This document shows, in pieces, positions 18,983 through 34,601 of a stretch of DNA of 36,522 nucleotides. The notes under the pieces were generated by a model. The model worked only from the letters and a program-made list of their open reading frames with translations. It was not told the origin of the DNA and made no database searches. This DNA comes from Lutibacter sp. (GTDB lineage: Bacteria > Bacteroidota > Bacteroidia > Flavobacteriales > Flavobacteriaceae). The DNA lies in contig NVWM01000035.1 in assembly GCA_002733665.1 (NCBI GenBank), positions 1-36,522 on the forward strand, in the 5' to 3' direction. The first letter of the stretch is position 1. The number at the start of each line of letters is the position of its first letter. The position numbers and the translations under genes are program-made.

Positions 18983-19561
18983 TTAAGATTTATATGTTGA
19001 TAAAAAAGCAATTAATTTTTTAATGGCTTTTCCGCGATGAGAAATGGCACCTTTTTCTGCTAGTGTCATTTCTGCAAATGAAGTTTTGAAACCTGTAGGT
19101 TTAAAAATAGGATCGTAGCCAAAGCCTTTTTCACCTTGCTTTTTTGTAAGTATTTCTCCTTCACAGTTGCCTTCAAACAATTGTTGCTCTCCATTGAGAT
19201 TTAGCGCAACAACAGTTCTAAATTGTGCCTTTCTATTTGTGTTGTTTTTTAATGTTTTGAGTAGTTTTTGCATATTCTTTTCAGAATCTGCATCTTCTCC
19301 AGCATATCTAGCAGAATAAACTCCAGGAGCACCATCTAAGGCTTCAACTTCAAGTCCAGTATCATCTGCAAAACAATCAAAACCGTAGTTTTTGGTAACA
19401 TAATTGGCTTTTAAAATTGCGTTGCCTTCAAGTGTATTTGCAGTCTCAGGAATATCTTTATAACATTCAATATCTTGTAAGGATAAAATTTCTATTTGTG
19501 GTAATAAAGCCTCAACTTCTTTAAGTTTATTAGCGTTATTTGTTGCAAAAACAATTTTCAT
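18983..19561 (-). CDS. rdgB: RdgB/HAM1 non-canonical purine NTP pyrophosphatase
   Basis: RdgB hydrolyses dITP, ITP and XTP to the monophosphate and cleans the nucleotide pool. The 192-residue protein starts [20 protein letters not shown], the substrate-binding signature (T-x-N-x-x-K). It has [25 protein letters not shown] (about 61-85) with the catalytic Asp, [11 protein letters not shown], the segment [19 protein letters not shown], and the His-Arg motif at its end. Length is typical. A TACTTTTG box (19573-19566, minus) sits directly before the ATG, so its transcript may be leaderless. Confidence 0.95.
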
Positions 19562-19631: not shown

Positions 19632-19781
19632 ATGAACAAACCAATAACTAAAAAGAAACAATGGATTACACCTGAGATTGTGGATTTAGATATGCAAAAC
19701 ACTAATGGTGGTGCACTAACAAACTTCATTGAAATGGGTGGACCTGGACCTACTACTCCCACTTGCGCACCTTCATCTTAA
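19632..19781 (+). CDS. Lasso peptide precursor 1 (intact)
   Basis: This 49-codon gene encodes a leader MNKPITKKKQWITPEIVDLD followed by MQNTN, then the core. The leader has a W-x-x-P-x-I recognition motif, equivalent to the YxxPxL motif bound by the RRE protein B1, and Thr24, which fits the conserved Thr at -2 before the cleavage site. The core is then 24 residues: ring segment GGALTNFIE with Glu9 as macrolactam partner of Gly1, followed by a loop and tail rich in Gly, Pro and Thr that ends TCAPSS. There is one Cys only, so no disulfide. The cleavage site is inferred; cutting one residue later would give a Gly1-Glu8 ring. It is the only precursor in the locus with an unbroken standard frame. 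Confidence 0.88.
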   Translation: MNKPITKKKQWITPEIVDLDMQNTNGGALTNFIEMGGPGPTTPTCAPSS

Positions 19782-19846
19782 CTTTTTGTAGTTAGAACAC
19801 TTTTACATCATTAAAAAACTAATTCGTAAAAAGCCGTTTTTTTTTG

Positions 19847-19854
19847 TAACTTTG
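19847..19854 (+). promoter_or_regulatory. -7 box for lasso precursor 2
   Basis: TAACTTTG is a perfect TAnnTTTG match 27 bp before the TTG at 19882. A possible -33 (TTCG, 19823-19826) is 20 nt upstream. Precursor 2 therefore appears to have kept its own promoter although its frame is broken. Confidence 0.4.
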
Positions 19855-19881
19855 CAATTGAATTTTTAAAAACATACAATT

Positions 19882-20026
19882 TTGAATAAGATACAAACTG
19901 CTAAAAAGAAACAATGGGGTTACTCCAGAGATTGTAGATTTAGATGTGCAAAACACAAATAGTGGAACTGTTGTAGGTGCTGTAGAAAATACTACAGTAT
20001 ATGCTGTCTGCGCACCTTCATCTTAG
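19882..20026 (+). pseudogene. Lasso peptide precursor 2, broken by a +1 frameshift
   Basis: From the TTG at 19882 the frame reads MNKIQTAKKKQW and then meets GGGG (19916-19919) where the parallel with precursor 1 needs GGG. With four G the frame ends early (stop within about 15 codons). With one G removed it continues VTPEIVDLDVQNTN, then ring segment SGTVVGAVE, and a tail ending VCAPSS, stopping at the TAG at 20024-20026. Glu is again ten residues after the leader Thr and the CAPSS end matches precursor 1. The start is TTG, not ATG. It may be a real pseudogene, a phase-variable G-tract or a sequencing error in a homopolymer. Confidence 0.8.
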
Positions 20027-20084
20027 TTTAGAGGTTTCTAATTTTTTTGAAAATAATTTGTAATGAAAATATAACACTTATTTT

Positions 20085-21512
20085 ATGATTTTCATTACAT
20101 TAGATTTCGCACTTTTTTTTAGTATATTTTTTATCCTTTATTGGTTTATCTTTCATAAGAATATTAAAATTCAGAATATTTTAATTCTTATAGCGAGCTA
20201 TATTTTTTATGGTTGGTGGGATTGGCGATTTTTAATTCTTATATTTATAAGTAGCCTTGTTGACTATCTGGTTGGTCGGCTATTAATGAAAGAAGATAGG
20301 GAAATTAATAGAAAAATTCTTCTTTGGGTAAGTATAGGAACCAATCTTGGAATTCTAGGGTTTTTTAAATATTTCAACTTTTTCTTAGATAGTTTCAAAT
20401 CGGCTTATGGATTGTTCAATGCTACCGCTGAATTTTCTACATTAGACATTATACTTCCTGTTGGTATTAGTTTTTATACACTGCAGACACTTAGTTATAC
20501 TATTGATATTTATGATAAAAAAATAAAAGCAACCAATGATATTGTAAGTTTCTTTGCTTTTGTAAGTTTCTTCCCTCAACTAGTTGCTGGTCCTATAGAA
20601 AGAGCCAGTAAATTATTACCACAATTTAAAAAGAAGCGTATTTTTAATTACGAGCAAGCAGCAGATGGTATGCGTCAAGTTTTATGGGGTTTATTTAAGA
20701 AGATGGTTATCGCTGATAATTGTGCCAAATATGTGAATATTGGTTTTTCGGATTATGAGTCGCTTGATGGTAGCACCTTATTTTTAACTTTAGTAATTGC
20801 TTGTTTCCAATTTTATTGTGATTTCTCTGGATATACAGATATAGCAATAGGTACTGCAAGAACGTTAGGCTTTAAACTAAGTAAGAATTTTGATTATCCT
20901 TTTTTCTCAAGAAATGTATCAGAATTTTGGCAAAAATGGCACATTTCGCTTATTTCATGGATACGTGATTATGTGTTAAGAAGATTAAAAGGGTTTTCTA
21001 AGATTAAATTATATAGAAATATATTTATAGTATTCATATTGACAGGTTTTTGGCATGGTGCCAATTGGACGTTCATATTTTGGGGTTTTTTACATGCGTT
21101 AACATTTATACCTTTGGTGTTTTGGAAACGCACAAAATACAAGTATACTATTGCGCATAATAAGTTTTTTCCTAGCATTAAGGAATCATTTTTAATGCTT
21201 AAAACATTTTTGATATTTGCATTGGTAGGTGTGTTCTTTCGAATTGATACGGTATTGGATGGGTTTAAGTATTTAGGTAAAATTTTCAGCATATCATTAT
21301 TTTCAATGCCAATGTTACCTGGAAAAAGTGTATTTATTGGAATTGTATTTTTATTATTGGTAGAATGGATGCAAAGAAATAAGGAACATGGATTGTCGTT
21401 GGAAGGACTTAAAATTTCTCCAATAATTAGATGGTCATTTTATATAAGTATTGTATTTATAATCATCCTATTTGGAGGAAGTTCTAATGACTTTATATAT
21501 TTTCAATTTTAA
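20085..21512 (+). CDS. MBOAT-family O-acyltransferase (AlgI-like)
   Basis: This 475-residue polytopic membrane protein of the membrane-bound O-acyltransferase family has about ten helices. Family segments are visible: SYIFYGWWDWRFL, LGFFKYFNF, LPVGISFYTLQTLSYTIDIY, FPQLVAGPIERAS, and the catalytic-His motif ILTGFWHGANWTFIFWG. AlgI/DltB-type MBOATs move acyl groups across the membrane onto extracytoplasmic acceptors, working with an SGNH partner. Such a partner follows 8 bp downstream. It lies between the precursor genes and the peptide-modifying genes on the same strand, so acylation of the exported lasso peptide is conceivable, but acylation of a surface glycan is the usual job. Confidence 0.88.
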   Translation: MIFITLDFALFFSIFFILYWFIFHKNIKIQNILILIASYIFYGWWDWRFLILIFISSLVDYLVGRLLMKEDREINRKILLWVSIGTNLGILGFFKYFNFFLDSFKSAYGLFNATAEFSTLDIILPVGISFYTLQTLSYTIDIYDKKIKATNDIVSFFAFVSFFPQLVAGPIERASKLLPQFKKKRIFNYEQAADGMRQVLWGLFKKMVIADNCAKYVNIGFSDYESLDGSTLFLTLVIACFQFYCDFSGYTDIAIGTARTLGFKLSKNFDYPFFSRNVSEFWQKWHISLISWIRDYVLRRLKGFSKIKLYRNIFIVFILTGFWHGANWTFIFWGFLHALTFIPLVFWKRTKYKYTIAHNKFFPSIKESFLMLKTFLIFALVGVFFRIDTVLDGFKYLGKIFSISLFSMPMLPGKSVFIGIVFLLLVEWMQRNKEHGLSLEGLKISPIIRWSFYISIVFIIILFGGSSNDFIYFQF

Positions 21513-21520
21513 TATTTGAT

Positions 21521-22429
21521 ATGAAGAAATTTCTTATAAAAATTAGTTTTATCATTATACCAGTTATTATTTTCTTAGAGGTTGTAGAATATACAGTAAG
21601 AAAACAAGATAATTCCGTTTTAAAAATAAAGAGAGATTATATAGAAAATAATAATGAGAATATTGAAGGCTTAATTTTTGGTTCATCAACTTTATTGCAA
21701 GGTATAAATCCTGCGATTTTAAAAATGAATACGGCATCACTTGCTATTGCAGGAAATGATGTTAATAGTGGAGTCGTTTTGTTTAATGCAGTTAAAGAGC
21801 AGTTAAAATTAAAGTTTATCATATTTGAATTATCCAATGGTTATTTAGGTAAAAAAAACCCTAAAGGTTCACTGAGGAGTAAAAAGGCTCCATTCTATTT
21901 TAACACTCCCAAAAAAGAAGTCAAAGATTTTTTTCTTGCAAGGTATCCATTAAAAAAACAATTATTAAACAAGAAAAATAGACTATCTAGTTATAATAAA
22001 TGGGGTTTTGATACTAAAGTTAAAACTACTGATTTTGATAGATTTCATTATAATGACAGCATCATATTGAAATCTGAGCAAATGCTTAATGTTTTAAAAT
22101 ATCATAATGTTATCAATGCAAACAACTATATTTTTAATATTAATTTATTGCATGAATTGATTGAAATATGTAAAAACGAAAATATAAAAGTTGTTTTTGT
22201 AAGCCCTCCCAAATATCATCTTTATAACAATGTGTTAATTGATGAGCATTCAAGTCGAAGAAAAGAATTTTTAGAAGATGTTATTGATAATAAAAACGTC
22301 TTTTTTTGGAACTATGAAAGAACATATGAAAATGATTCTCAATCGTTTAGTGATTTAATTCACCTAAATTTGGATGGAGCACAACTGTTTTCTGAAAAAA
22401 TAAATCAAGAGTTGATTAAAATACAATGA
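21521..22429 (+). CDS. SGNH-hydrolase-like partner of the MBOAT protein
   Basis: This 302-residue protein has an N-terminal membrane anchor or signal (about 4-20, FLIKISFIIIPVIIFL) and an extracytoplasmic domain. The domain shows the SGNH/AlgJ-DltD pattern: LIFGSSTLLQGINP near residue 50 with a candidate nucleophile Ser, an Asn in IAGNDVNSG, and a C-terminal Asp-x-x-His in SDLIHLNLDGAQLFSEKI. Length and position beside the MBOAT gene suggest the two form an acyl-transfer pair. Sequence similarity is to the fold only; I do not recognise a named subfamily. Confidence 0.7.
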   Translation: MKKFLIKISFIIIPVIIFLEVVEYTVRKQDNSVLKIKRDYIENNNENIEGLIFGSSTLLQGINPAILKMNTASLAIAGNDVNSGVVLFNAVKEQLKLKFIIFELSNGYLGKKNPKGSLRSKKAPFYFNTPKKEVKDFFLARYPLKKQLLNKKNRLSSYNKWGFDTKVKTTDFDRFHYNDSIILKSEQMLNVLKYHNVINANNYIFNINLLHELIEICKNENIKVVFVSPPKYHLYNNVLIDEHSSRRKEFLEDVIDNKNVFFWNYERTYENDSQSFSDLIHLNLDGAQLFSEKINQELIKIQ

Positions 22430-22516
22430 TTTTTATTTAATTCTTTTTTTGTTATACTTGATATTTCGTTCAAAGATTATCACTCTAAGCATAGGGTTTT
22501 TAAGTATAATTTTATG

Positions 22517-22524
22517 TATTTTTG
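22517..22524 (+). promoter_or_regulatory. -7 box directly before a (CA)16 tract, kinase gene
   Basis: TATTTTTG is a perfect TAnnTTTG. It ends 2 nt before the dinucleotide repeat, so the start site would fall inside the repeat and the leader would be almost pure CA. A -33 element is not evident at the normal distance. Confidence 0.45.
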
Positions 22525-23390
<866 letters not shown>

Positions 23391-23391
<1 letters not shown>

Positions 23392-24275
23392 TGAACGCAA
23401 CTACTATAGACTTGAAAAAAAACATCATGTGGTTGGCTTCTTATCCTAAGTCAGGTAATACGTGGTTTCGCATGTTTTTAGCCAATTATTTAAAAAATGA
23501 TGAAGAACCAGTATCTTTAGATGAAATAGAATCTACACCTATTGCAAGTAGTCCTGTAGATTTTGAAGAAACAATGGGTTTCAATCCTTTTGAAATGGGC
23601 TTGGATGAAGTAGATTTGTACAGACCAGACATGTATAAAATAATCACACAAGATACTGAAGATGAAAATGAAGTTTTTTATAAAAAGATTCACGATGCAT
23701 ATACGCTAAACACTAATAATATTCCAATTTTTCCAGCAGAAGTAAGTATTGGTGCAGTTTATTTTGTTAGAAACCCATTGGATGTTTGTGTATCATATGC
23801 CAATCACAGTTCTTCTAATATTAAGCGAAAGGTAAAACTTATATTAAATGAAAAAGGTGATGTTGCAGGAAGGAAAACTGGGCAATTGCGACAGATAATG
23901 TTATCTTGGAAAAGTCATTATGATAGTTGGAAGTCTCAAACAGAAATACCTGTTCATATTGTTCGTTATGAAGATATGAAACAAACACCTATGGAAACGT
24001 TTGGAGCAATCATAAAATTTTTGAAATTAGATTATGATAAGGAGCGTTTAGGAAGAGCGATTGTTAATAGTGATTTTAAATTATTACAACAAATGGAAGC
24101 TGAAACTGGGTTTAAAGAAAAAGCACAGTTTTGTGAAAACTTTTTTTGGAAAGGAACTATAGGCAACTATAAAGAACATTTATCGGAAAAACAAATTGAA
24201 AGGATAGTGACTTATAGCAAAGAAACTATGATTGAATTGGGATATATAGATAGTAAAGGGAAATTGACAGTATAA
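23391..24275 (+). CDS. PAPS-dependent sulfotransferase in the lasso locus
   Basis: This 294-residue cytosolic sulfotransferase uses PAPS as sulfate donor. The 5'-phosphosulfate loop is ASYPKSGNTWFRM (about 16-28, Lys20) and the 3'-phosphate site is VRNPLDVCVSYANH (Arg127, Ser135), both intact. The C-terminal segment FFWKGTIGNYKEHLS resembles the RKGxxGDWK co-substrate motif. It is translationally coupled to the kinase gene (overlapping TAATG) and followed after 11 bp by the RRE protein gene, so it is embedded in the lasso operon. The likely acceptor is the lasso peptide, for example a Ser, Thr or Tyr hydroxyl, but a small-molecule acceptor is not excluded. Confidence 0.87.
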
Positions 24276-24286
24276 TAAATTAAGAA

Positions 24287-24550
24287 ATGGAGAAATATAG
24301 TAGAAACGATCAAGTTATTGACGGAGAATTAGATGACAACCAAGTAATGATGCATCTTGAAAAAGGAAAATATTATGGACTAAATCCAATTGGAAAAAGT
24401 ATTTGGGCATTATTAGAAACACCAAAAAGTTTTGATGAAATCACAACAGCATTATTATCAGAATTTGAAGTTTCAGAAGAACAATGTATTGAAGAAACAA
24501 AAACCTTTATTGAAAAGGCAACAGAACTTGATATTTTAAAAAAAATATAA
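24287..24550 (+). CDS. Lasso RRE protein B1 (PqqD-like)
   Basis: This 87-residue protein is a complete PqqD-like RiPP recognition element. It has the winged-helix start KYSRNDQVIDGELDDNQVMM, then KYYGLNPIGKSIWALLE, and an amphipathic C-terminal helix ending CIEETKTFIEKATEL. B1 proteins bind the precursor leader and deliver it to the B2 protease and cyclase. The W-x-x-P-x-I motif in the precursors is the predicted ligand. Here B1 and B2 are separate genes, as in most non-proteobacterial clusters, with a 7-bp gap to B2. Confidence 0.9.
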   Translation: MEKYSRNDQVIDGELDDNQVMMHLEKGKYYGLNPIGKSIWALLETPKSFDEITTALLSEFEVSEEQCIEETKTFIEKATELDILKKI

Positions 24551-24557
24551 GAAGAAG

Positions 24558-24971
24558 GTGAAATTATTGCGAAAAGCCATACAAATGCCATTTGATGAGA
24601 AAATACTGTTATTAGAAGCGGTGTTTTTTTTATTTTTTTCAAAAATATTTTTGTTTTTGCCGTTTAAGTTTTGCGTAAGTAAAGCAAAAAACAAAGATGA
24701 ACAAGGTGAAGTTTTAACATTTATTGAATTAAAAAAAATTAGGAATTCAGTATATAGAGCCAATAAATTAGCTTTTTGGAAAAATATATGTTTGGTGAAA
24801 TCTTTTGCAGCAAGATTCATGTTATTAAGAAGGAACGTGCATTCAAAAATGTATTTAGGGTTGGAGTTTAAAAACAATAAAGAGTTGTTAGCACATGCTT
24901 GGCTAGTTTCAAATGATTTTCAAATTACTCCAAAAGGGAAAAAGAAATATAAAGAAATATTTAATTTTTAG
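24558..24971 (+). CDS. Lasso leader peptidase B2
   Basis: This 137-residue transglutaminase-like Cys protease removes the lasso leader. The triad pattern of the B2 family is visible: Cys78 in KNICLVKSFAARFML, His113 in LLAHAWLVSND, and a following Asp (Asp120 is the candidate). Start is GTG at 24558, preceded by the purine-rich AGAAGAAGG that would pair with the 16S tail, which is uncommon in this phylum. An upstream hydrophobic stretch (about 16-35) is normal for the family. A protein of this kind beside B1 and an asparagine-synthase homologue defines the cluster as lasso. Confidence 0.88.
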   Translation: MKLLRKAIQMPFDEKILLLEAVFFLFFSKIFLFLPFKFCVSKAKNKDEQGEVLTFIELKKIRNSVYRANKLAFWKNICLVKSFAARFMLLRRNVHSKMYLGLEFKNNKELLAHAWLVSNDFQITPKGKKKYKEIFNF

Positions 24972-25012
24972 AGAGCTTTTATTAGGTTTCTAAACACCAT
25001 AAAATATTATTA

Positions 25013-26842
25013 ATGAGTTTTATATACGGAATTGTTAATTTAGATAATAAACCTGTAAAAAAAGAAGAAGTTCACCAATTAGCATCTGCAGTTACTGACT
25101 CTGTTTTTATAGAAAACACTACCATTGAAGGATCATATGCATTAGGATATTGTCATAGGCAAGATAGAGATGCAAAAGCAGGTATTTATAAAAGTAAAGA
25201 TGTAACTGTTCTTGCTGATATTAGAATATATAATGTAGATAAACTCAAAGAAATTTTTAGTTTTGAAACCTTTGAAGAGGCCTTCGCTAAAGCATATTTA
25301 AAATGGGGAAACCAATGTGCTAATCATATCAACGGAGATTTTTCGGTAATTGTTATTGATCATAGAAGTGGAGAAGTGTTTATGTTTAGAGATCATATTG
25401 GAGCAAGACCATTGGCATATTCTTTTGAAGGAAGTAAACTTATTTTTGCTTCTCATGAATTTGGAATTGCGAAGTCTAAACTAACAGAGGTGTTGTTATC
25501 TGAAGAAAATTTACTTTCTCAGTATTTCAGATTGCCGAGTACGTATTCTCAGACTGTTTTTCAGAATATTTATAAAGTATTTCCAGGTCACTTTATACAA
25601 TTTGTTACCGATGATAAGAAACATGAAGAAAAATATTGGAAACCAGAGCAAATTGTTGAAAATAAAAAAATAACCTTTAAAGAAGCAGTTGCTCAAGTGC
25701 GAAAATTACTATTGAGTGCAACACACAATCGTATTGAAGAAGGTAAAAATGGTGTACATGTTAGTAGTGGATTAGACTCAACTGGTATTGCATGTATTTT
25801 GGCAGATAAAATTGAAAATAAAGAAAATTTAATAGGTTATTCCTGGACTCCAGAAGAAATTGATGTTTTTGACGGAATTGATGAAAAAGAATTAATAGAG
25901 ATTTTTGCGAAAGAAAAAAATGTAAAAATCAACTATTTAAAACTTTCTAAAAATGAGCATATGAAAAGTACGCTTATTCCTGAATTTGAAAAAATGAACA
26001 TTGAACTTCCTACAATGAAAAATGCAGGAAATGACAATGTAAAAACACTTTTTAGTGGTTGGGGAGGCGATGAATTTTTATCTTTGAGTACGCGTGGTAC
26101 TTTTAACCATCTATTCTTTAAGTTTAAATGGTGGACATTGGCAAAAATGATTCGTTTTAAGGGTATAAAATGGAGCCTTGTTAAAGCCAAAGTAGATATC
26201 CTTCCTTTATTAATTCCTTTTGGTTTGTTATCTCCTTTTAGCGGAGGAAGAAATAAAGTTACAAAATCTAAGTTGTCTGTATTTAAGAAACCATTTGTAG
26301 AAAAGCATAAAAAGCAAATTTTTGAAAAGAACAACAAAAATATTTTTGGATATGGTGACCGAAGACAGTTTGCATTAAACTTGCTATATAATATGCATGT
26401 GACTGAGCGTATAGATAGTTGGGCTATAAATGCAGAACGATATGGAATAGAATATAAATATCCTCTATTGGATAAAGATGTATTAGAATACTGGTTTAGT
26501 TTACCAATTAAACACACCTATCACAAATTTCATTCAAGGTTATTGTATAGAGCTTCTTTAAAAGGCATTTTGACTGAAAAAATACGCATGCGAAGAGATA
26601 AAGGAGAAGGGATGCGTATAGCATATACACAGCAACAAGGACAAAATAGTCAAGAATTTATTAAAAACGAATATTTATCAATTGCTAAAGATGAACATTT
26701 GCCGTATTTTAATATCGAAAAATTAAATGAACTGGCAGAATCAATGTCTAATAAGAGAGTATTAGAAAGAAAACGAGGTAAAATTAATGGTGTACCAGCA
26801 TTATATTTGCGCTATGTTAAATTGGTTAAGAAATATTTATAA
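25013..26842 (+). CDS. Lasso macrolactam synthetase C (asparagine-synthase-like)
   Basis: This 609-residue ATP-dependent cyclase adenylates the side chain of the core Glu and joins it to the new N-terminus. The N-terminal glutamine-amidotransferase domain is degenerate: it starts Met-Ser-Phe where active enzymes have Cys2. The synthetase half has the PP-loop HVSSGLDSTGIACI (about 249-262) and LFSGWGGDEFLS. Degenerate glutaminase with intact PP-loop is the lasso-C pattern. The C-terminus LPIKHTYHKFHSRLLYRASLKGIL is typical. The stop overlaps the next ATG by one base (TAATG). Confidence 0.92.
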   Translation: MSFIYGIVNLDNKPVKKEEVHQLASAVTDSVFIENTTIEGSYALGYCHRQDRDAKAGIYKSKDVTVLADIRIYNVDKLKEIFSFETFEEAFAKAYLKWGNQCANHINGDFSVIVIDHRSGEVFMFRDHIGARPLAYSFEGSKLIFASHEFGIAKSKLTEVLLSEENLLSQYFRLPSTYSQTVFQNIYKVFPGHFIQFVTDDKKHEEKYWKPEQIVENKKITFKEAVAQVRKLLLSATHNRIEEGKNGVHVSSGLDSTGIACILADKIENKENLIGYSWTPEEIDVFDGIDEKELIEIFAKEKNVKINYLKLSKNEHMKSTLIPEFEKMNIELPTMKNAGNDNVKTLFSGWGGDEFLSLSTRGTFNHLFFKFKWWTLAKMIRFKGIKWSLVKAKVDILPLLIPFGLLSPFSGGRNKVTKSKLSVFKKPFVEKHKKQIFEKNNKNIFGYGDRRQFALNLLYNMHVTERIDSWAINAERYGIEYKYPLLDKDVLEYWFSLPIKHTYHKFHSRLLYRASLKGILTEKIRMRRDKGEGMRIAYTQQQGQNSQEFIKNEYLSIAKDEHLPYFNIEKLNELAESMSNKRVLERKRGKINGVPALYLRYVKLVKKYL

Positions 26843-27780
26843 TGAATTTTTCAAGAAAAACTTTACATAAGCGCCATCGGCTCAGTCATCAACAAATAGA
26901 TACTTGGCTTGGAGAAAATAAAAGCAAAGAATTTATTCAAGAAAAAATGAGACGCCTTAAAATGGTTAAAAATTTTTTGTCAGTTACAGATCTTCTGAAA
27001 GAAAATAAGGTCTCATTTATTAACTTTAAAGGACCTTTATTATCACATAGAATATATAATGATGCTTCGGTACGTTATATGAGAGATGTTGATGTCTTAG
27101 TTGATAAAGTAGTTATTGAGGAAGTACTAGAATTACTTTTAAAAAATGGATATCATTTAATGGATGGTGTTTTTTGGCCAAAAACAAAAGTAAAACAACA
27201 AGTATTGGTGAATACATTACATCATTTGGCATTTTATAACAAAGAATTAGGATTTTGTGTTGAAGTACATTGGATGCTTACACAAATGCTACCGATCTCT
27301 AAAGATAAAATGCAAGGTATAATAAAGAACAACTTGACTGAAGCAACAATCTTTAATAGAACTTTTACAGTGTTTACAAAAGAGTTTGAATTGTTATATC
27401 TTTTAATTCATGGCTCTAGTCATGGTTGGCAAAGATTAAAATGGTTGGTGGATATAAATGATTATCCAATCGAAGATATAGATATGGTTGTTTTTGAAAA
27501 ATTGGTAAAACAGTTTAAAGCAGGTAGAATTATTAATCAAACTAATTTTTTATTAAATAAATATTTCCAAAGCAGTTTACCTATATCTTCAATTGATCGC
27601 TTACCAAATCATTTTATTAAGTTTGCAGTAGATTCTATTGAATCTGATATTCAGAGAACAAAAAAGCGTAGTTTACAATCATTTAGAAATAAGGCAACAT
27701 TATTTCCAGGTATATATTATAAATTGAAAATGATTCGTTATTTTGATTTTATGTTATTTTGGAGGATTGCCCATAATTAA
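26842..27780 (+). CDS. Nucleotidyltransferase-family protein (NTP_transf_5) of the lasso operon
   Basis: This 312-residue member of the nucleotidyltransferase-like family found in several kinase-containing lasso clusters has FINFKGPLLSHRIYND and VRYMRDVDVLV (about 52-80), with Asp-x-Asp as metal ligands. ELLYLLIHGSSHGWQRLKW follows around residue 183. In pseudomycoidin biosynthesis a related protein acts on the kinase-modified C-terminal Ser and adds a hexose-like group. A role downstream of the kinase is therefore inferred. It is translationally coupled to the cyclase and followed by the exporter after 9 bp. Confidence 0.85.
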   Translation: MNFSRKTLHKRHRLSHQQIDTWLGENKSKEFIQEKMRRLKMVKNFLSVTDLLKENKVSFINFKGPLLSHRIYNDASVRYMRDVDVLVDKVVIEEVLELLLKNGYHLMDGVFWPKTKVKQQVLVNTLHHLAFYNKELGFCVEVHWMLTQMLPISKDKMQGIIKNNLTEATIFNRTFTVFTKEFELLYLLIHGSSHGWQRLKWLVDINDYPIEDIDMVVFEKLVKQFKAGRIINQTNFLLNKYFQSSLPISSIDRLPNHFIKFAVDSIESDIQRTKKRSLQSFRNKATLFPGIYYKLKMIRYFDFMLFWRIAHN

Positions 27781-27789
27781 AATAATACT

Positions 27790-29490
27790 ATGTATAACAA
27801 TCTTTTTATATTAAAAAGTTTTAACCTGTATTTTAAACACAAACCATTTAGGTTAATACTGTTATTTACAATGACCTTATTTTTAGGTTTTACTCAGGGT
27901 ATTGGTATCGTTTTGTTAATTCCATTGTTACAATTGCTTGCTCCTGAAGGATCGGAAGTGGTTTCAAATAAGTTAACACGTATTTTTGAATCTATATTAG
28001 AACATACAGGTTTAGAAATAAGTTTTGAACTTGTCTTGATTGTATTTTCAGTAACCTTAGTTACTATGGCGTTCTTAAATTATTTCAAGTCCATTATACA
28101 AGCTTCATACCAACAAGAATTTTCATACATTACTCGTAAGCGAATTTTTAAAAAAATACTAACAAGTGATTGGCAGTTTTTAAACGGAAAAAGCAAGCAC
28201 AGCCATATTCAGATTTTAACTTCTGAAATACCCAAAATGACAAGCTACTACTATAATTATGTGGGATTGGCAACAAAAATTATTTTCATAATAGCATATG
28301 GTGTTTTAGCATTACTGGTTTCTGTAAAGTTTACATTGCTCATAGTTGTGATTGGTTTTGTAGTTATGTTGGTATTGAGAAAATATATACATAGAGCTGA
28401 AACACTCGGAGGTGAAAATATTCGTGCTTTTAGAAAAACGCTAAAGCATATTGATGATTTTTGGTTGACAGTAAAAATGGCAAAAGTGCACAATTCTGAA
28501 GTGTTTTATTATGATAAGTTTGATAAGTCTAGTACTTTGATGTTACAATACCAATTCAATCAAATAAAAAACAGGGCTTTCCCTCAATTTTTATTTACCA
28601 TTGCAGGTGTTTTTGCATTGGTATTGATAGTGTATTTGGCGTATAATGTGGCGCAATTACCTTTGGTATCCATCTTTGTATTGATTTTGTTGTTTGGTAG
28701 GATTTTCCCACAATTTAAAGGGATTAATAATGATGTAAATATGTTATATTCTAATGTGCCTTCTGTAAAAATGGTGCTAAAATTAGACAATGAAATAAAA
28801 GAAAGTGCTTTTAAGGTAACTGATGTAAAAACTACAATTCCTTTCGAAAAACAATTAGAAATAAAAAACTTAAATTTTTCGTATGATGTAGATACACCAA
28901 TTTTCACCAATTTTTCTACTTTAATTCCAGCGCATAAAATCACAGGAATTATTGGCGAGTCTGGTAGTGGAAAAACGACGTTGATTGATATAATTACAGG
29001 CTTACAAGATGTGCCTAAAGGAACTATTACTGTTGATGGATTACCACTTACAAAAGATCAATTACCTACTTGGAAGAGCGAGATAGGATACTTACCACAA
29101 GATTCCTTTTTTATTGATGGAACAATAAGAGAGAACTTGGTATGGGATAGTAAACAAAATCCAACGGATAGTGAAATAATGGAAGTGTTAAAACAAGTAA
29201 ATGCCTATGCTGTTGTTGAAAATCAAAAAAAGGGCTTAGATACTTCTATAGCAAATTACCAATATCATTTTTCTGGAGGAGAACGCCAACGACTGGCATT
29301 GGCAAGAGTGTTGCTACGCAAACCAAAATTGTTGTTGCTAGATGAGGCAACTTCTGCGCTTGACCCGCAAAACGAAGAACAAATTATGAAGTGTTTGTTT
29401 CAATTAAAAGAAAAACACACTATTGTGTTTATAACACATCGTGAAAGTTTAAAACCTTCGTTTGATGTCATTATTGATTTGAATAAATAA
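27790..29490 (+). CDS. ABC exporter of the lasso peptide (D)
   Basis: This 566-residue fused permease-ATPase has six membrane helices (about 15-310). The ATPase domain has Walker A GESGSGKTT (about 388-396), signature FSGGERQRLALARVL (about 493-507) and Walker B LLLLDEATSALD with the catalytic Glu intact, unlike the exporter at 1334-3085. It ends the plus-strand operon and would export and give self-protection from the modified peptide. No peptidase C39 domain is present, as leader removal is by B2. Confidence 0.92.
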   Translation: MYNNLFILKSFNLYFKHKPFRLILLFTMTLFLGFTQGIGIVLLIPLLQLLAPEGSEVVSNKLTRIFESILEHTGLEISFELVLIVFSVTLVTMAFLNYFKSIIQASYQQEFSYITRKRIFKKILTSDWQFLNGKSKHSHIQILTSEIPKMTSYYYNYVGLATKIIFIIAYGVLALLVSVKFTLLIVVIGFVVMLVLRKYIHRAETLGGENIRAFRKTLKHIDDFWLTVKMAKVHNSEVFYYDKFDKSSTLMLQYQFNQIKNRAFPQFLFTIAGVFALVLIVYLAYNVAQLPLVSIFVLILLFGRIFPQFKGINNDVNMLYSNVPSVKMVLKLDNEIKESAFKVTDVKTTIPFEKQLEIKNLNFSYDVDTPIFTNFSTLIPAHKITGIIGESGSGKTTLIDIITGLQDVPKGTITVDGLPLTKDQLPTWKSEIGYLPQDSFFIDGTIRENLVWDSKQNPTDSEIMEVLKQVNAYAVVENQKKGLDTSIANYQYHFSGGERQRLALARVLLRKPKLLLLDEATSALDPQNEEQIMKCLFQLKEKHTIVFITHRESLKPSFDVIIDLNK

Positions 29491-29498
29491 TATTTTAT

Positions 29499-29627
29499 TT
29501 ATGATGTAGGTGCTTGATCAAATGTTTGAGAAGTTGATTCAAAGAAACCATTAGGGATAGACGACTTCGTATTTCTCAAATCTAAATCAATAATTTCAGG
29601 CGTTTGCCATTATTTTTTTCTTTTCAT
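29499..29627 (-). pseudogene. Lasso peptide precursor 4, nonsense codon in the leader
   Basis: On the minus strand ATG (29627) reads M-K-R-K-K then TAA (29612-29610), then WQTPEIIDLDLRNTK and the core. In precursors 1, 2 and 3 the codon before Trp is CAA (Gln), so TAA is most simply a C-to-T mutation. The downstream frame is otherwise intact: ring segment SSIPNGFFE has Glu at Thr+10, and the tail ends DQAPTS. The stop is 9 bp past the convergent end of the exporter gene. Either it is silent or Trp and core are made by readthrough or rare reinitiation. Confidence 0.78.
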
Positions 29628-29662
29628 AATAATAGTTAGTATAATATAAGTACAATGATAGT

Positions 29663-29682
29663 AAACAAACAAACAAACAAAC
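29663..29682. repeat. (AAAC)5 tetranucleotide repeat
   Basis: Five perfect AAAC units are followed directly by ATG (29683). The tract lies between precursor 4 and the decayed leader remnant, in the minus-strand 5' region of precursor 4. No usable gene follows on the plus strand (seven codons). Slippage here would alter the spacing upstream of precursor 4. Confidence 0.85.
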
Positions 29683-29689
29683 ATGCTAC

Positions 29690-29745
29690 TGTGTTATTAC
29701 ATCTAAATCAATATTTTGAAAAGGCTTGCCTTGGCATTATTTTTT
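29690..29745 (-). pseudogene. Decayed lasso leader remnant (precursor 5)
   Basis: The minus strand of about 29745-29690 reads AAAAAATAATG, then CCTTTTCAAAATATTGATTT and AGATGTAATAACAC. This parallels AAAAAATAATGG...CCTGAAATTATTGATTTAGAT of precursor 4 and the P-Q-I-I-D-L-D-V leader of precursor 3, with small insertions and a lost frame. No core is recognisable after it; the AAAC repeat stands where the core should be. Alignment was by eye and the limits are approximate. Confidence 0.4.
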
Positions 29746-29880
29746 AAATTTTTTAGTTCTTTTTTGTAACAAACATTAAAAAACATTTTTTTGATTCCCA
29801 TAACAGTAACTTTTATTAAATTGCATTGCTAACCTACTTAACCTAAAATAAAACCTAAAAAAAAACGTTTATCTTCTCTG

Positions 29881-32800
29881 TTGTCAATGTTATTATTTTG
29901 TTTCACAACAGTATTTACATATGCACAAAATTTTGACGAAATTACAACAAACGTAGGTTTAGTGTCTCTAGAGAATAACATGGGAGTGTCTGTTGCAGAT
30001 ATTGATGGAGACAATGACTTAGATGTATTTGTAGTTGCAAGAGCAATGGATGTAGATAGTGACCCAACAACACATAGTCGGTTGTTTTTAAACAATAACG
30101 ATGGTACTTTTGATGATATTACTACTGCTGCAGGATTCACAAATTTACTTCCTTATTCTGCTGATATTACAGCACATGTGCTTAACGGATTTAAAAGAGG
30201 TGCTTCTTGGGGAGATTATGATAATGATGGCTATCCAGATTTATTTTTAACACACAAGTATAAAGTACAACTTTTTCATAATAATGGCGATTTAACTTTT
30301 ACTGATGTAACTGATACTGCAGGTTTTGATATGATCAATACCTGTAATAGTATGTCTTCAACATGGTTTGATTATGACAATGATAGTTTTTTAGACATTA
30401 TTATTGGCGATTGGGATGGTGTTAATATAGCATTCCGTGGATGTGAAGGAAATAAATTTTATAAAAACAATGGAGATGGTACTTTTGAAAAAATATCAAA
30501 TAACATTGGTGCCGAGCCTGATGATACTCATTTTACATATTCTGCAATTCCATTTGATTTTAATCAAGATGGTTGGATGGATTTATATTTAGCCAATGAT
30601 TTTTCGGTTCCAAATCAAGTATTGTTAAATGACACAAGTGGTGATTTTACTGAAAATGCTGCTGATTATAGGGTTGATGTTGTTTTTACAGGTATGGGAT
30701 TAGATTTAGGAGATTATAATAATGATGGCTTTTTTGATTTTGCAGGAACAGCTATAAATAGAAATGTTTTATATACCAATAATGGAGATAATACGTTTAC
30801 AGATTTAGCAGCAGAAAAAGGTGTTTTCAATTCAGATTGGGCTTGGTCTATACATTTTTCAGATTTTGATCTAGATGGTGATGAAGATTTGTATATTACA
30901 AATGGTGCTAATGCGAATAGATTGGAGAAAAATTATTATTATAAAAACCAACTTATTGAAACGGGTGATGCAACATTTTTAAATATTTCTGTTGAAGTAG
31001 GTATAAACAATGAAAACACTTTAACCAATTGCTCTGAAGTATTTGATTATGACAATGATGGAGATTTAGATCTTTTTCAATCAAATGGATTGAGTGCTTC
31101 AAATTTTTATGAAAACAAAACATTAAACTCAACATCCACAACTATTGATTCACCAAATTTTTTAAAAGTTTCACTTCAAGGCACTATCTCAAATAGAGAT
31201 GCTATTGGAACCAAGTTAAGTATCACAACTTCAGAGGGTAGTTTCCATAGATTTTTTACGGGTACAAATTTACAAGGTCAAAGTTTACAACCTGTTCATT
31301 TTGGAGTTGGTAATAGTCAGAGTATTTCAGAACTGGTCATTACTTGGCCTTCAGGTATCATTGAAACACATAATAATATTGCTGTAAATAAAACAATGTT
31401 AGCAATAGAAAATACAAGTTTTACGGATTTGAATATTTCACCTAGTGATAAATTAAAAGGGTGTATGGATCCTACTTCGTGTAATTATAATCCTCTAGCT
31501 TTAGAAGATGATGGTTCTTGTACATATTTAGAATCAAATGCAATTACAGGAAATACCAATGTAGATCCATTGACTTTTGAAACGTATACGTATGCAATTA
31601 TGGCAGGTTCAACAATTGTATGGCAAGTTGAAAATGGAGAAATAACCGATGGTCAAGGTACAAGCACCATTACTGTAGAATGGGAAAACAAAACTACAGG
31701 AAAAGTAACAGTTACTGAAACAAATGGTTGTTCAAGTCCTCCAATTACGCTGGACATTGTAATAAACTATGTGTCAAATATATTGAATCATTCTCACGCT
31801 CGTTTATGGAACGATGCTTTGCTATATGCTATACGAGGGGATTATGCAAGACCAACAGTGCATGCTAGAAATTTATTTCATACAAGTGTTGCTATGTATG
31901 ATGCATGGGCAATTTACAGCTTAGAGGCAAGTCCATATTTAATTGAAAATCGAGATGAACTATTAGGTTACATTGATGTCGATTTATTAACTTCAGATAA
32001 TCTTGAAGCAACAAGAAACAAAACATTGAGTTATGCAATGTATAAACTGTTATGTCATCGTTTTGAAAACTCTCCTAGTGCAATCACAACCAAAGCCGTA
32101 TTTGATGCTTTGATGGTTGAGTTAGGCTATGATATTAGTTATGCATCTATAGATTATACAACAGGAGAGCCTGAAGCAATAGGTAACTATATAGCTGCAA
32201 CAATTATAGATTTTGGACTTACAGATGGTTCTAGAGAAATAAGTGGCTATGACAATAGTTTTTATGAGCCTATAAATGAACCTTTAGATCCTTTTTTAAG
32301 TGGCAACACAACGATTACTGATCCTAATAGATGGCAACCTTTGGCTTTAGATAATTTTATTGATCAGAGTGGAAATACTATTCCAGGAGATACTCCAGAA
32401 TTTTTAAGTCCAGAATGGGGAGATGTAACTCCTTTTGCCATGCAAGATGATGTGAAGCAAACTTTTCAAAGAGATGGTGATAATTATACGGTATATCATG
32501 ATCCACAAGCACCACCATATATTAGTGCTACAGGAAATTATAAAACAGGATTTAATTTTGTTCCAGCTTGGGGAGCTCACCTCGACCCTAATGATGGTGT
32601 CTTGTGGGATATTTCACCAAAAAGTATAGGAAATGTGTCTACAGACACATTCTCAAATGGAATTACAAATTACTTTAGTTTTTATAAGTTTAATGGAGGA
32701 GATAAAGGAGTTGGAAGAGATATAAACCCATCTACTGGCGCTTCATATCAAGAACAAGTAGTTCCTAGAGGAGATTATACACGGGTTTTGGCTGAGTTTT

Positions 32801-33891
32801 GGGCTGATGGACCAGATTCAGAGACACCTCCAGGACATTGGTTTACGTTGTTAAATTATGTAAGTGATCATGATTTAGTTGTAAAAAGATTTGGAGGAGC
32901 AGGAGAAATACTAAATAACTTAGAATGGGATGTAAAATCATATTTTATTTTAGGAGGTGCTATGCATGATTCTGCAATTGCAGCTTGGGGAATTAAAGGT
33001 TGGTATGACTATACACGTCCAATTTCTGCAATTCGATATATGGCAGAAATGGGACAAAGTTCTGATGCGTCATTAGCTAATTACCATGTAGATGGAATTC
33101 AATTGCAACCCAATTATATCGAAGTTGTTGAAGAAGGTGATGCATTGGTAGGAGATACAAATCAACATGTTGGAAAAATAAAACTGTATACTTGGAGAGG
33201 TCACGACTATATAGATGATGTACAAACTGACCAAGCAGGAGTTGGATGGATTTTAGCAGAAAATTGGTGGCCATATCAGCGCCCTACTTTTGTAACACCT
33301 CCATTTGCAGGGTATGTTTCAGGGCACTCCACATTTTCTAGAGCGGCAGCAGAAGTACTTACTTTAATAACAGATGATGAGTATTTTCCTGGAGGTATGG
33401 GAGAGTTTTTAGCAGAAAAGAATGAGTTTTTAGTGTTCGAAGAAGGACCTTCAGTAGATATTACATTGCAATGGGCAACATACAGAGATGCTTCTGACCA
33501 ATGTAGTTTATCTAGAATTTGGGGAGGTATTCATCCTCCAGCAGATGATATTCCTGGACGAATTATAGGAGAGCAAATAGGAATTGATGCTTATAATTAT
33601 GGTATACCATATTTTTCAGGAAATGTTTTAAATACTGTTGATGTTGACCTTCAAAAAGAAATACATAGTGTGTATCCAAACCCTTTGGTAAGTAGAGATT
33701 TATACATCTCAAATACAACAGCATTAACAAGTTTTGAATTGTTTGACTTTACAGGAAAGAAATTAGGGATTTTAGATAAGAGTTTTGATTTTTCTTCTAA
33801 AATTACGCACTTAAAGATGATGCAAGAACTGGCTTCTGGAACTTATTTGATTAAAATAGACAATAGTTCTAAAGTGATACTTGTTAAATAA
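29881..33891 (+). CDS. Secreted FG-GAP / UnbV / vanadium-haloperoxidase-like fusion protein with T9SS tail
   Basis: This multidomain exported protein of about 1336 residues begins with a signal peptide ending VFTYAQ. Seven Asp-rich FG-GAP/VCBS calcium repeats (about 35-430, such as DYDNDGYPDLFL) follow, then an ASPIC/UnbV domain (about 435-510, ITWPSGIIETHNN) and a GCMDPTSCNYNP metal-loop motif (about 527). A PAP2/vanadium haloperoxidase domain runs about 637-1240, with RPTFVTPPFAGYVSGHS and SRIWGGIHPPADD giving the Arg, Ser-Gly-His and Arg...His of the vanadate/phosphate site. A type A T9SS sorting tail starts near 1258 (VYPNPLVSRD). The start is unclear: TTG 29881 is used here, ATG 29887 is possible, and the frame is open to an ATA at 29848 that would add the basic MKPKKKRLSS-like region. 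Confidence 0.85.
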   Translation: MSMLLFCFTTVFTYAQNFDEITTNVGLVSLENNMGVSVADIDGDNDLDVFVVARAMDVDSDPTTHSRLFLNNNDGTFDDITTAAGFTNLLPYSADITAHVLNGFKRGASWGDYDNDGYPDLFLTHKYKVQLFHNNGDLTFTDVTDTAGFDMINTCNSMSSTWFDYDNDSFLDIIIGDWDGVNIAFRGCEGNKFYKNNGDGTFEKISNNIGAEPDDTHFTYSAIPFDFNQDGWMDLYLANDFSVPNQVLLNDTSGDFTENAADYRVDVVFTGMGLDLGDYNNDGFFDFAGTAINRNVLYTNNGDNTFTDLAAEKGVFNSDWAWSIHFSDFDLDGDEDLYITNGANANRLEKNYYYKNQLIETGDATFLNISVEVGINNENTLTNCSEVFDYDNDGDLDLFQSNGLSASNFYENKTLNSTSTTIDSPNFLKVSLQGTISNRDAIGTKLSITTSEGSFHRFFTGTNLQGQSLQPVHFGVGNSQSISELVITWPSGIIETHNNIAVNKTMLAIENTSFTDLNISPSDKLKGCMDPTSCNYNPLALEDDGSCTYLESNAITGNTNVDPLTFETYTYAIMAGSTIVWQVENGEITDGQGTSTITVEWENKTTGKVTVTETNGCSSPPITLDIVINYVSNILNHSHARLWNDALLYAIRGDYARPTVHARNLFHTSVAMYDAWAIYSLEASPYLIENRDELLGYIDVDLLTSDNLEATRNKTLSYAMYKLLCHRFENSPSAITTKAVFDALMVELGYDISYASIDYTTGEPEAIGNYIAATIIDFGLTDGSREISGYDNSFYEPINEPLDPFLSGNTTITDPNRWQPLALDNFIDQSGNTIPGDTPEFLSPEWGDVTPFAMQDDVKQTFQRDGDNYTVYHDPQAPPYISATGNYKTGFNFVPAWGAHLDPNDGVLWDISPKSIGNVSTDTFSNGITNYFSFYKFNGGDKGVGRDINPSTGASYQEQVVPRGDYTRVLAEFWADGPDSETPPGHWFTLLNYVSDHDLVVKRFGGAGEILNNLEWDVKSYFILGGAMHDSAIAAWGIKGWYDYTRPISAIRYMAEMGQSSDASLANYHVDGIQLQPNYIEVVEEGDALVGDTNQHVGKIKLYTWRGHDYIDDVQTDQAGVGWILAENWWPYQRPTFVTPPFAGYVSGHSTFSRAAAEVLTLITDDEYFPGGMGEFLAEKNEFLVFEEGPSVDITLQWATYRDASDQCSLSRIWGGIHPPADDIPGRIIGEQIGIDAYNYGIPYFSGNVLNTVDVDLQKEIHSVYPNPLVSRDLYISNTTALTSFELFDFTGKKLGILDKSFDFSSKITHLKMMQELASGTYLIKIDNSSKVILVK

Positions 33892-33894
33892 TCA

Positions 33895-33912
33895 ATTATT
33901 ATTATTATTATT
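33895..33912. repeat. (ATT)6 trinucleotide repeat at the precursor 3 stop
   Basis: Six ATT units follow the haloperoxidase-type gene stop and reach the stop codon of precursor 3 on the other strand. It is the third simple repeat in the lasso locus. As a trinucleotide outside coding sequence it should have little effect beyond spacing. Confidence 0.75.
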
Positions 33913-34114
33913 AACTAGTAGGATAGTATGTATAACGACCATTATAGGAGACTCCCTCATAAGAACCAGAGCTAAACCCAGACTTAGTATTTTTAACATC
34001 TAAATCAATAATTTGAGGCGTTTGCCATTGTTTTTTAGTGTGTGGTTTATTTTTTATAATACGATGTAGTTTTTGGGTATAGTGTAAAAATAATAAAAAT
34101 AAATTTAAAGTCAT
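33911..34114 (-). CDS. Lasso peptide precursor 3 (start codon uncertain)
   Basis: The homologous part is encoded from about 34057: K-N-K-P-H-T-K-K-Q-W-Q-T-P-Q-I-I-D-L-D-V-K-N-T-K, then ring segment SGFSSGSYE with Glu at Thr+10, and a Tyr-rich tail ending YYPTS. Aligning with precursor 1 puts the expected ATG at 34057-34055, where the sequence is ATA. The nearest in-frame ATG is 34114 and would add 19 mostly hydrophobic residues. So it is made with a longer N-terminus, from a rare AUA or AUU start, or not made. It is 25 bp downstream of the Lrp gene on the same strand and could be read through from it. Five Tyr and several Ser and Thr in the tail are possible sulfation or phosphorylation sites. 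Confidence 0.72.
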   Translation of the reverse strand: MTLNLFLLFLHYTQKLHRIIKNKPHTKKQWQTPQIIDLDVKNTKSGFSSGSYEGVSYNGRYTYYPTS

Positions 34115-34139: not shown

Positions 34140-34601
34140 TTAATGAACAGGAAGATTGGTTGTAGATTTCACTTCAGTCATTACAAATGCGCTTTGTACT
34201 TGCCCAATATTGTCAATTGATGCCAATTTTTTCGCAACAAATGCTTGGTAATCGTCCATATCTTTTACCATTACCTTGATTAAATAATCATAAACTCCTG
34301 CAGTATGATAGCATTCTATAACTTCATCAAACTGTAAAATGTCTTTTTCAAACTTAGATATAAATAACGCTTCATGACTTTTTAGAGTAACATTTGAAAA
34401 AACAAGGATGGACAACCCAATTTTTTTGCGGTTCAATATGGCTTTGTAAGAATCAATAAAACCATTGTTTTCCAGTCGTTTTATCCGTTCAAAAATAGGC
34501 GTAGAAGTCAAATTTAATTTTGTTGCGAGCTCTTTAATCGTATACTTGCCATTATGCTGTAATAATTTTAAAATGGCTTTGTCTGTGGCGTCAATGTTCA
34601 T
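34140..34601 (-). CDS. Lrp/AsnC-family transcriptional regulator
   Basis: This 153-residue regulator has an N-terminal winged helix (MNIDATDKAILKLLQHNGKY, then TIKELATKLNLTSTPIFERI) and the C-terminal RAM ligand-binding domain (about 66-148, with YHTAGVYDYLIKVMVKD). Lrp/AsnC proteins sense amino acids. It is divergent from a methionine-gamma-lyase-like gene 162 bp away, like the mdeR-mdeA arrangement of pseudomonads, so it probably controls that gene in response to methionine or another sulfur amino acid. Precursor 3 lies directly downstream on the same strand. Confidence 0.92.
   Translation of the reverse strand: MNIDATDKAILKLLQHNGKYTIKELATKLNLTSTPIFERIKRLENNGFIDSYKAILNRKKIGLSILVFSNVTLKSHEALFISKFEKDILQFDEVIECYHTAGVYDYLIKVMVKDMDDYQAFVAKKLASIDNIGQVQSAFVMTEVKSTTNLPVH

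Follow-up and report, generated by a model that had tools for sequence, protein, structure and literature searches.

A Lutibacter lasso peptide locus with a paired kinase and sulfotransferase and dispersed precursor genes

The whole 36,522-nt contig NVWM01000035.1 of a Lutibacter sp. (Flavobacteriaceae; NCBI GenBank assembly GCA_002733665.1, a 2.7-Mb genome), called the window below, was analyzed. It carries a lasso peptide cluster in which a gene for an HPr-kinase-like enzyme runs directly into one for a sulfotransferase of the 3'-phosphoadenosine 5'-phosphosulfate (PAPS) type. On balance, we favor reading this locus as a lasso factory with a family of precursors, whose products would be phosphorylated and sulfated by the kinase-sulfotransferase pair. 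The product set would likely consist of phosphorylated lasso peptides, and these would probably be sulfated as well.

The kinase-sulfotransferase pair across lasso loci

An initial scan with the lasso macrolactam synthetase (C) of the window as the only query found no relative. A survey with the leader peptidase (B2) gave 37 stretches, holding 39 B2 matches outside the window, in 35 of 395 Bacteroidota genomes. The kinase was present in 26 of these stretches and a sulfotransferase in two, both times with an adjoining kinase. The closest relative, locus L082, has the same run of kinase, sulfotransferase, B1 (leader-binding protein), B2 and C as the window, and its sulfotransferase is 63% identical. 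A single precursor with a C-terminal Ser was found there, with NTP_transf_5 and exporter genes nearby, and the locus is flanked by genes read as cysD and cysN-cysC, which would supply PAPS.

A larger sample was drawn from relatives of the sulfotransferase. The best 80 of 577 were used, and lasso genes were called with profiles built from these 80 loci. At least two lasso core genes were present in 59 loci, which span 10 phyla and are mostly metagenome bins. None of the 59 lacks the kinase; in 58, both genes share a strand and that of the kinase ends at most 500 bases ahead of the sulfotransferase gene. Single-sequence searches gave lower figures, with an adjacent kinase in 63 of the 80 loci, 59 of which also have one or more core genes. 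In a quick tree with 88 rows, 86 of them different, made from the window, the 80 loci and seven further ones, the kinase accompanies every row with a nearby lasso core gene (75/75, window included), and the presence of such a gene changes five times along the tree compared to 12.4 times in shuffles. Over 58 loci, the correlation between pairwise kinase and sulfotransferase distances is 0.657. Five other gene pairs, with B1 and C (58 or 48 loci), reach 0.31-0.42, likewise above all 500 shuffles.

Fusions were also found. In an uncultured gammaproteobacterium, kinase and sulfotransferase domains share a single open frame of 690 aa (L159:5020-7089). A possible second fusion of this kind, in L108, was set aside since its kinase half is not one clean frame. 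In L180:6676-7722, a Sulfotransfer_4 domain is fused to B2 (PF17784, 1.4e-38; PF13471, 1.1e-27). This locus has a further Sulfotransfer_2 gene, and in L181 a Sulfotransfer_4 gene lies directly behind C, with a Sulfotransfer_1 gene also near the lasso genes. By gene content, the pair is a recurrent lasso module.

These results support the preliminary description of the window, made from the sequence alone, in linking the sulfotransferase to the lasso pathway. That description had named a sulfotransferase acting on an unrelated small molecule as the case that would overturn the link. An enzyme that modifies such a molecule and merely sits in the operon would fit the 13 of 80 related loci in which no lasso core genes lie nearby. 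However, only three of these 13 have the kinase, and the ten that lack both account for only two label changes on the tree. The 1-base overlap with the kinase, the fusions and the co-divergence also argue against an unrelated substrate, which we consider very unlikely.

NTP_transf_5, which may provide a sugar step, was found in only 35 of the 59 lasso loci, compared to 59 for the kinase. By this count, the sulfotransferase is associated with the kinase and not with the sugar step, so the sulfate acceptor would more likely belong to the (phospho)peptide than to a sugar. Another possible explanation is that the NTP_transf_5 protein places a sugar on phospho-Ser and the sulfotransferase acts on that sugar, so that the product would be a sulfoglyco-phospho lasso peptide. 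Sugars are acceptors for many PAPS sulfotransferases, and kinase, sulfotransferase and NTP_transf_5 are all present in both the window and L082. Nevertheless, where 8 kb of flank was available on either side (32 loci), the kinase was found every time and NTP_transf_5 in 23; in the other nine NTP_transf_5 was not found, although it could lie further off. We regard sulfation of a sugar as an unlikely alternative that deserves to be kept in view.

Cluster genes and the precursor family

The features of the locus are collected in Table 1. Separate B1, B2 and C genes and an exporter are all present, as had been described, and B2 is the one that scores above a lasso-specific cut-off. The nine enzyme and exporter genes from the membrane-bound O-acyltransferase (MBOAT) to the ATP-binding cassette (ABC) exporter are all open frames. 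The kinase stop overlaps the sulfotransferase start by one base, as C does NTP_transf_5. Gaps of 11 bases separate sulfotransferase and B1, 7 separate B1 and B2, 41 separate B2 and C, and 9 separate NTP_transf_5 and the exporter. The earlier statement that the operon is coupled by overlaps or gaps of 11 bp or less therefore holds from kinase through exporter, but not between B2 and C. Ahead of the kinase start lies a gap of 128 bp.

Table 1. Features of the lasso locus and precursors encoded on other contigs of the genome
Feature	Position	Strand	Remarks
rdgB	18983-19561		left flank of insert
Precursor 1	19632..19781	+	intact; W(-15)xxP(-12)xI...T(-2)N(-1), core GGALTNFIE9MGGPGPTTPTCAPSS
Precursor 2	19898..20026	+	leader frame broken relative to precursor 1; precursor-1 leader family; end CAPSS
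MBOAT-family membrane O-acyltransferase	20085..21512	+	PF03062, 1.3e-22; lasso link uncertain
SGNH/DltD-like partner of MBOAT (presumed)	21521..22429	+	no Pfam match
(AC)16.5 perfect microsatellite	22526..22558		last base is the A of the kinase ATG
HPr-kinase-like peptide kinase	22558..23391	+	PF07475, E 1.6e-6, 28.2 bits; H92, G107, G110, G112-K113-S114, D130-D131
PAPS-type sulfotransferase	23391..24275	+	PF00685, 5.3e-23
B1, PqqD-type leader-binding protein	24287..24550	+	PF05402, 3e-17; NF033536 score 66.8, cut-off 80
B2, lasso leader peptidase (transglutaminase-like)	24558..24971	+	NF033537 and PF13471, both above cut-off
C, lasso macrolactam synthetase (Asn-synthase-like)	25013..26842	+	NF033535, 2.1e-50, score 172, cut-off 525
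NTP_transf_5 protein	26842..27780	+	PF14907, 7.5e-35
D, ABC exporter	27790..29490	+	
Precursor 3	29502..29624	-	in-frame stop within leader; end APTS
FG-GAP/UnbV protein, large	29881-33891		inside insert; VCPO-like domain, type IX sorting tail
Precursor 4	33911..34114	-	open frame; T(-2)K, core SGFSSGSYE9GVSYNGRYTYYPTS
AsnC-type regulator	34140-34601		right flank of insert
Intact precursor, contig C11	L237:4860-4988		same leader family
Intact precursor, contig C6	L238:4850-4999		same leader family
Two intact precursors, contig C35	L239:5104-5271 and 5428-5568		tandem pair; same leader family

The kinase and NTP_transf_5 assignments were borne out. The kinase model (predicted local distance difference test score, pLDDT, 93.9) has phosphoenolpyruvate carboxykinase (PEPCK) and HPr kinase structures as its best PDB matches. 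Its His, three Gly, Lys-Ser and two Asp, the H, G, G, G-K-S, D-D pattern of PadeK, ThcoK and BsfK, are spaced exactly as in the lasso kinase BsfK, in which the His, one Gly, the Lys, the Ser and both Asp were shown to be important (PMC10368454). Among the 58 partner kinases of the surveyed loci, the His is kept in 57, the Lys in 58, the first Asp in 57 and the second in 53.

The sulfotransferase was modeled with a pLDDT of 93.5, and its best solved matches are TEG12 and SULT1E1. It scores above the PF00685 cut-off and has the fold of the family. SYPKSGNTW, K99, H101, R127 and S135 are invariant in a 44-row alignment. We take these to be the 5'-phosphosulfate loop, the catalytic Lys and His, and the Arg and Ser that hold the 3'-phosphate. 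The genome encodes an adenosine 5'-phosphosulfate (APS) kinase, providing for PAPS supply. The possibility that the sulfotransferase is simply a common gene of the bacterial family was rejected, since any match was found in only 15 of 299 genomes, the source genome included. The matches beyond this locus are 23-48% identical, with the highest values on short stretches.

Precursor 1 had been described as having a lasso leader and a Glu at ring position 8 or 9. Its Thr at -2 is present, and comparison with seven sister copies places the Glu at position 9. Those sister copies came from a search of the genus sample (14 genomes, source genome included), which was conducted with precursor 4 alone and then with a profile of six copies, the six thus being part of the profile. 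Besides the copies in the cluster, the precursor 4 search found one precursor each on contigs C11 and C6 and a further two on C35, with E values from 4e-9 to 5e-5; one congener has a relic. The profile search matched eight precursors in the source genome, of which six are intact and two are broken. A ninth, weak hit (E 0.17) was left uncounted. In the other 13 genomes, the only match at E <0.01 was the relic, in congener G1023. Precursor 1 is intact, and four more intact precursors lie on contigs beyond the window, out of reach of the preliminary description.

Thr(-2), Glu9 and a C-terminal Ser are common to the eight copies. Glu9 lies within core positions 7-9, where a ring Asp or Glu is expected of a lasso precursor. 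The six intact copies have a mean identity of 59% in the last 17 leader residues and of 10% at ring positions 3-8, and four of them give weak matches, below cut-off, to the NCBIfam lasso_PadeA_fam model. The usual start of precursor 4 is a non-ATG codon, and an in-frame ATG lies upstream at 34114. The trans precursors stand alone (C11, C6) or in tandem (C35), with neighbors such as a gene read as phosphoglycerate kinase. No lasso B2 was found beside them, and that of the cluster was the only one found in this genome, the estimated completeness of which is 92.5%, so a second machine may have been missed. With several precursors of one family outside the cluster, the pattern, as far as the leaders tell, is one machine with many substrates. 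Titles and abstract starts in the open-licence literature gave nothing on point for dispersed lasso precursors. Elsewhere, sulfotransferase-bearing lasso clusters with about three different precursors each were seen in L089, L110, L114, L153 and L165.

Proposed pathway and the evidence for and against it

The factory would serve six intact precursors, two of them encoded in the cluster and four on other contigs. B1 would bind the conserved leader, as known B1 proteins do. The HPr-kinase-like enzyme would phosphorylate the linear precursor, most likely on the invariant C-terminal Ser, by analogy with paeninodin-type kinases. The sulfotransferase would sulfate the same peptide, together with or after the kinase, on a core Ser or Thr, on Tyr where present, or on a group carried by the phospho-Ser. 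B2 would then cut after residue -1, and C would close a nine-residue ring from residue 1 (Gly or Ser) to Glu9. The NTP_transf_5 protein may add a sugar to the phosphate, and the ABC protein would export the product.

The points that weigh against this pathway concern the genes and their sampling, the donor site of the sulfotransferase and the acceptor on the peptide. B1 (NF033536), C (NF033535) and the kinase (PF07475, cut-off 33.3) score below their lasso- or HPr-kinase-specific cut-offs. The 80 loci were picked by likeness to the window's sulfotransferase, so the counts describe the family of this sulfotransferase and not all sulfotransferases. The cysDNC genes next to L082 may simply serve ordinary sulfate assimilation. 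Of the four cluster precursors, two are broken, and the case for processing in trans is made from leader likeness only.

The sulfotransferase had been described as having intact donor motifs. This is correct for SYPKSGNTW, K99, H101, R127 and S135, but the last donor motif, at 24141-24170, reads FFWKGTIGNY compared to FFRxGxxGxW in the family and thus departs from the C-terminal RKGxxG-W pattern. A Trp stands where 43 of the 44 aligned rows keep Arg, and a Tyr where 43 have Trp, the single odd row at both positions being the sulfotransferase under study itself. Despite this deviation, the protein can be filed as a Sulfotransfer_1 member on its fold and other motifs. The motif Arg helps bind PAPS in known sulfotransferases, and since it is replaced by Trp, donor binding in the branch of the window and L082 may be altered. 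The L082 sulfotransferase has the same ten letters, while that of L064 has the usual ones. The change looks constrained rather than decayed because it is common to two species whose sulfotransferases are otherwise 63% identical.

A decaying locus that makes no product would account for this donor motif, the two broken cluster precursors, the doubtful start of precursor 4 and the congener that keeps just a relic precursor. We consider decay quite unlikely, since the genes from MBOAT to ABC are open, precursor 1 and the four trans precursors are intact, and L082 carries the same altered motif.

Possible sites for phosphate and sulfate were compared among 29 distinct cores from 23 sulfotransferase-bearing lasso loci, with seven cores of kinase-only loci as the control. 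Cores were chosen by leader motif, Thr(-2) and ring Asp or Glu, and the core end was not used. Another 21 leader-like rows of sulfotransferase loci failed this filter; those of L088, L110, L114, L153, L155 and L163 are plausible precursors, and some of the rest are chance frames. The cores of sulfotransferase loci end in Ser in 22 of 29 and in Thr in three, leaving four that end in neither. A final Ser is not significantly commoner there than in kinase-only loci (3/7; p 0.17), and one known lasso kinase acts on Ser3 (PMC10368454). The cores are thus consistent with kinases that target a final Ser, but they do not prove a special tie of this residue to the kinase-sulfotransferase pair. Precursors with a ring Asp and no C-terminal Ser were seen at L103:8798-8962, L117:17376-17570 and L142:8846-9016, where either the decoration differs or the kinase uses another site.

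Tyr is absent from 13 of the 29 cores, so it cannot be the only sulfate acceptor across these loci; Tyr as the sole sulfation site was rejected and Tyr as one of several sites was retained as a possibility. An improbable but reasonable alternative to sulfation of the whole precursor family is a tyrosine sulfotransferase that decorates only the precursors with a core Tyr. This would agree with the higher share of Tyr-containing cores in sulfotransferase loci (16/29, compared to 1/7 in kinase-only loci; Fisher p 0.09), with the Tyr in five of the six intact cores of this genome, and with the best solved relatives, TEG12 and SULT1E1, acting on phenols. It would leave the enzyme without a target in the operon-adjacent precursor 1 and in the sole L082 precursor found, both of which lack Tyr.

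Sulfate could also serve transiently, with a sulfated Ser or Thr being eliminated or displaced. Sulfate is the leaving group in the retinol dehydratase, CurM and LGS1 reactions. Retinol dehydratase and LGS1 were among the profile and fold matches of the sulfotransferase and CurM among the profile matches, but none of the three is a best match and no partner lyase was seen in the operon. Such a role for sulfate is highly improbable in our view.

Genomic setting, known systems and implications

The lasso genes lie in a 14.5-kb insert between rdgB and the AsnC-type regulator, and the coordinates first given for the locus, 19632-34114, match the insert borders nearly exactly. Ten of the 13 congeners have both flanking genes as clear orthologues; the remaining three lack a clear match to one or both. 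In nine of these ten, the flanking genes are 24-95 bases apart, by match ends. The tenth, G1023, has an FG-GAP/type-IX gene and the relic precursor between them. A lasso C of this kind was found in 0 of the 13 congeners, where the matches are Asn-synthase relatives, 25-31% identical. Because the flanks adjoin in nine of ten congeners and none of the 13 showed a lasso C, the lasso block was, judging from this sample, either gained by or retained in the Lutibacter lineage studied.

The FG-GAP/VCPO-like gene inside the insert was rejected as a member of the pathway. It is probably outside the pathway since congener G1023 carries such a gene in the corresponding position and its genome yielded no lasso C. 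The preliminary description had also included a possible acyltransferase. The MBOAT gene is present, followed by a gene whose product we presume to be SGNH/DltD-like from its GSS motif, but its link to the lasso genes is suggestive only. MBOATs were near lasso genes in three of eight related Bacteroidia loci, where about 0.2 would be expected by chance in an after-the-fact test, and in none of the 80 sulfotransferase loci. They are also common, with matches in seven of the eight genomes searched (11 match rows in G706 and nine in G839), and those near lasso genes are not the closest to that of the window (43-48% identity compared to up to 54% elsewhere). The MBOAT was therefore not accepted as an established lasso tailoring enzyme.

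Seven proteins tested with PADLOC for anti-phage defense gave no match, and a plasmid search gave seven matches, all weak. TAnnTTTG promoter boxes were dropped as evidence, since the plus strand of this AT-rich region alone has 20 of them. Bacteroidota lasso clusters (L082:12698-15343, L053, L064, L155, L163, L179) recurrently have a formyltransferase-like gene next to them, together with two or three tail-collar-like ones; the latter also lie beside lasso clusters of other phyla.

A repeat finder was used on the whole contig for perfect repeats whose unit is four bases or shorter, with a score of at least 30. It listed only (AC)16.5 at 22526-22558, (AAAC)5.2 at 29663-29683 and (ATT)6.3 at 33895, all in the insert. 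The (AAAC)5.2 repeat lies near the relic precursor 3. A run of eleven AC was found in one of 254 loci, and that locus is a piece of the window. The first C35 precursor has (AACA)10 directly after its ATG (L239:5107-5146), so that gain or loss of a single unit would cause a frameshift. The (AC)16.5 in the 5' leader of the kinase is a possible slippage switch, and phase variation through repeats at the kinase start and a precursor start is a guess. A fuller picture, which we put forward tentatively and with less confidence than the pathway itself, is a combinatorial and possibly phase-variable system, in which one machine would make at least six lasso peptides from dispersed genes, constant in ring closure and C-terminal Ser and free in the remaining sequence, the kinase-sulfotransferase pair would decorate them with phosphate and sulfate, repeats would act as switches, and that pair would be a general module of lasso clusters in at least 10 phyla.

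Among known systems, paeninodin of Paenibacillus dendritiformis and its kinase-bearing relatives likewise have separate B1, B2 and C, an HPr-kinase-like enzyme and a precursor with a C-terminal Ser. The system described here differs in its sulfotransferase paired with the kinase, its NTP_transf_5 gene, its precursors in trans, and a nine-residue ring with Gly or Ser at position 1 and Glu9. Pseudomycoidin of Bacillus pseudomycoides likewise has a kinase (PsmK) and a nucleotidyltransferase (PsmN) beside its lasso genes, and the passages at hand mention no sulfotransferase. We assume that PsmN belongs to the NTP_transf_5 family, and the window likewise has a PF14907 protein in a kinase-bearing lasso operon. 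Prochlorosins, which are lanthipeptides, also come from one machine with many precursors that share a conserved leader, have variable cores and in some cases lie far from the enzyme genes. They resemble the system described here in the dispersed precursors and differ in chemistry and enzyme class. TEG12 is the best solved match of the sulfotransferase by profile and fold, with Teg14 and StaL also matching by profile; it is only 20-22% identical in the fold alignment and acts on a glycopeptide aglycone. The bsf cluster of Bradymonas sediminis shares the kinase motif spacing, a nucleotidyltransferase, B1, B2, C and D, and is flanked by an FG-GAP gene, as here. It differs in its C-terminal Asp, Ile(-2) and a kinase acting on Ser3, with no sulfotransferase mentioned in the available part of the paper (PMC10368454).

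Sulfotransferase genes have been seen in lasso clusters before. A putative one lies at the start of some Firmicute clusters (PMC8498205), and an HPr kinase and a sulfotransferase occur in some clusters of anaerobes (PMC4289311). In the available passages of both sources, these clusters are uncharacterised, and a fixed kinase pairing, a spread over phyla and fusions are not mentioned. In the parts at hand of a 2022 review of lasso modifications (PMC9266682), no word begins with "sulf", and in those of a 2026 review (PMC13352647) none begins with "sulfo". The preliminary description knew of no characterised sulfated lasso peptide, and none turned up in the open-licence papers searched, but the presence of sulfotransferase genes in lasso clusters had already been noted. 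To that description, the present analysis adds the recurrent pairing with a kinase, the fusions and the precursors in trans.

If the pairing means what it seems to mean, many lasso pathways would share sulfation, in addition to phosphorylation, as a common step. The kinase-sulfotransferase pair would then be a handle for genome mining and a tool to charge these stable peptides. Library construction could benefit from a lasso machine that naturally acts in trans on precursors whose ring and tail are almost free in sequence. Such a machine would also raise the question of what use the producer has for such a set of peptides.

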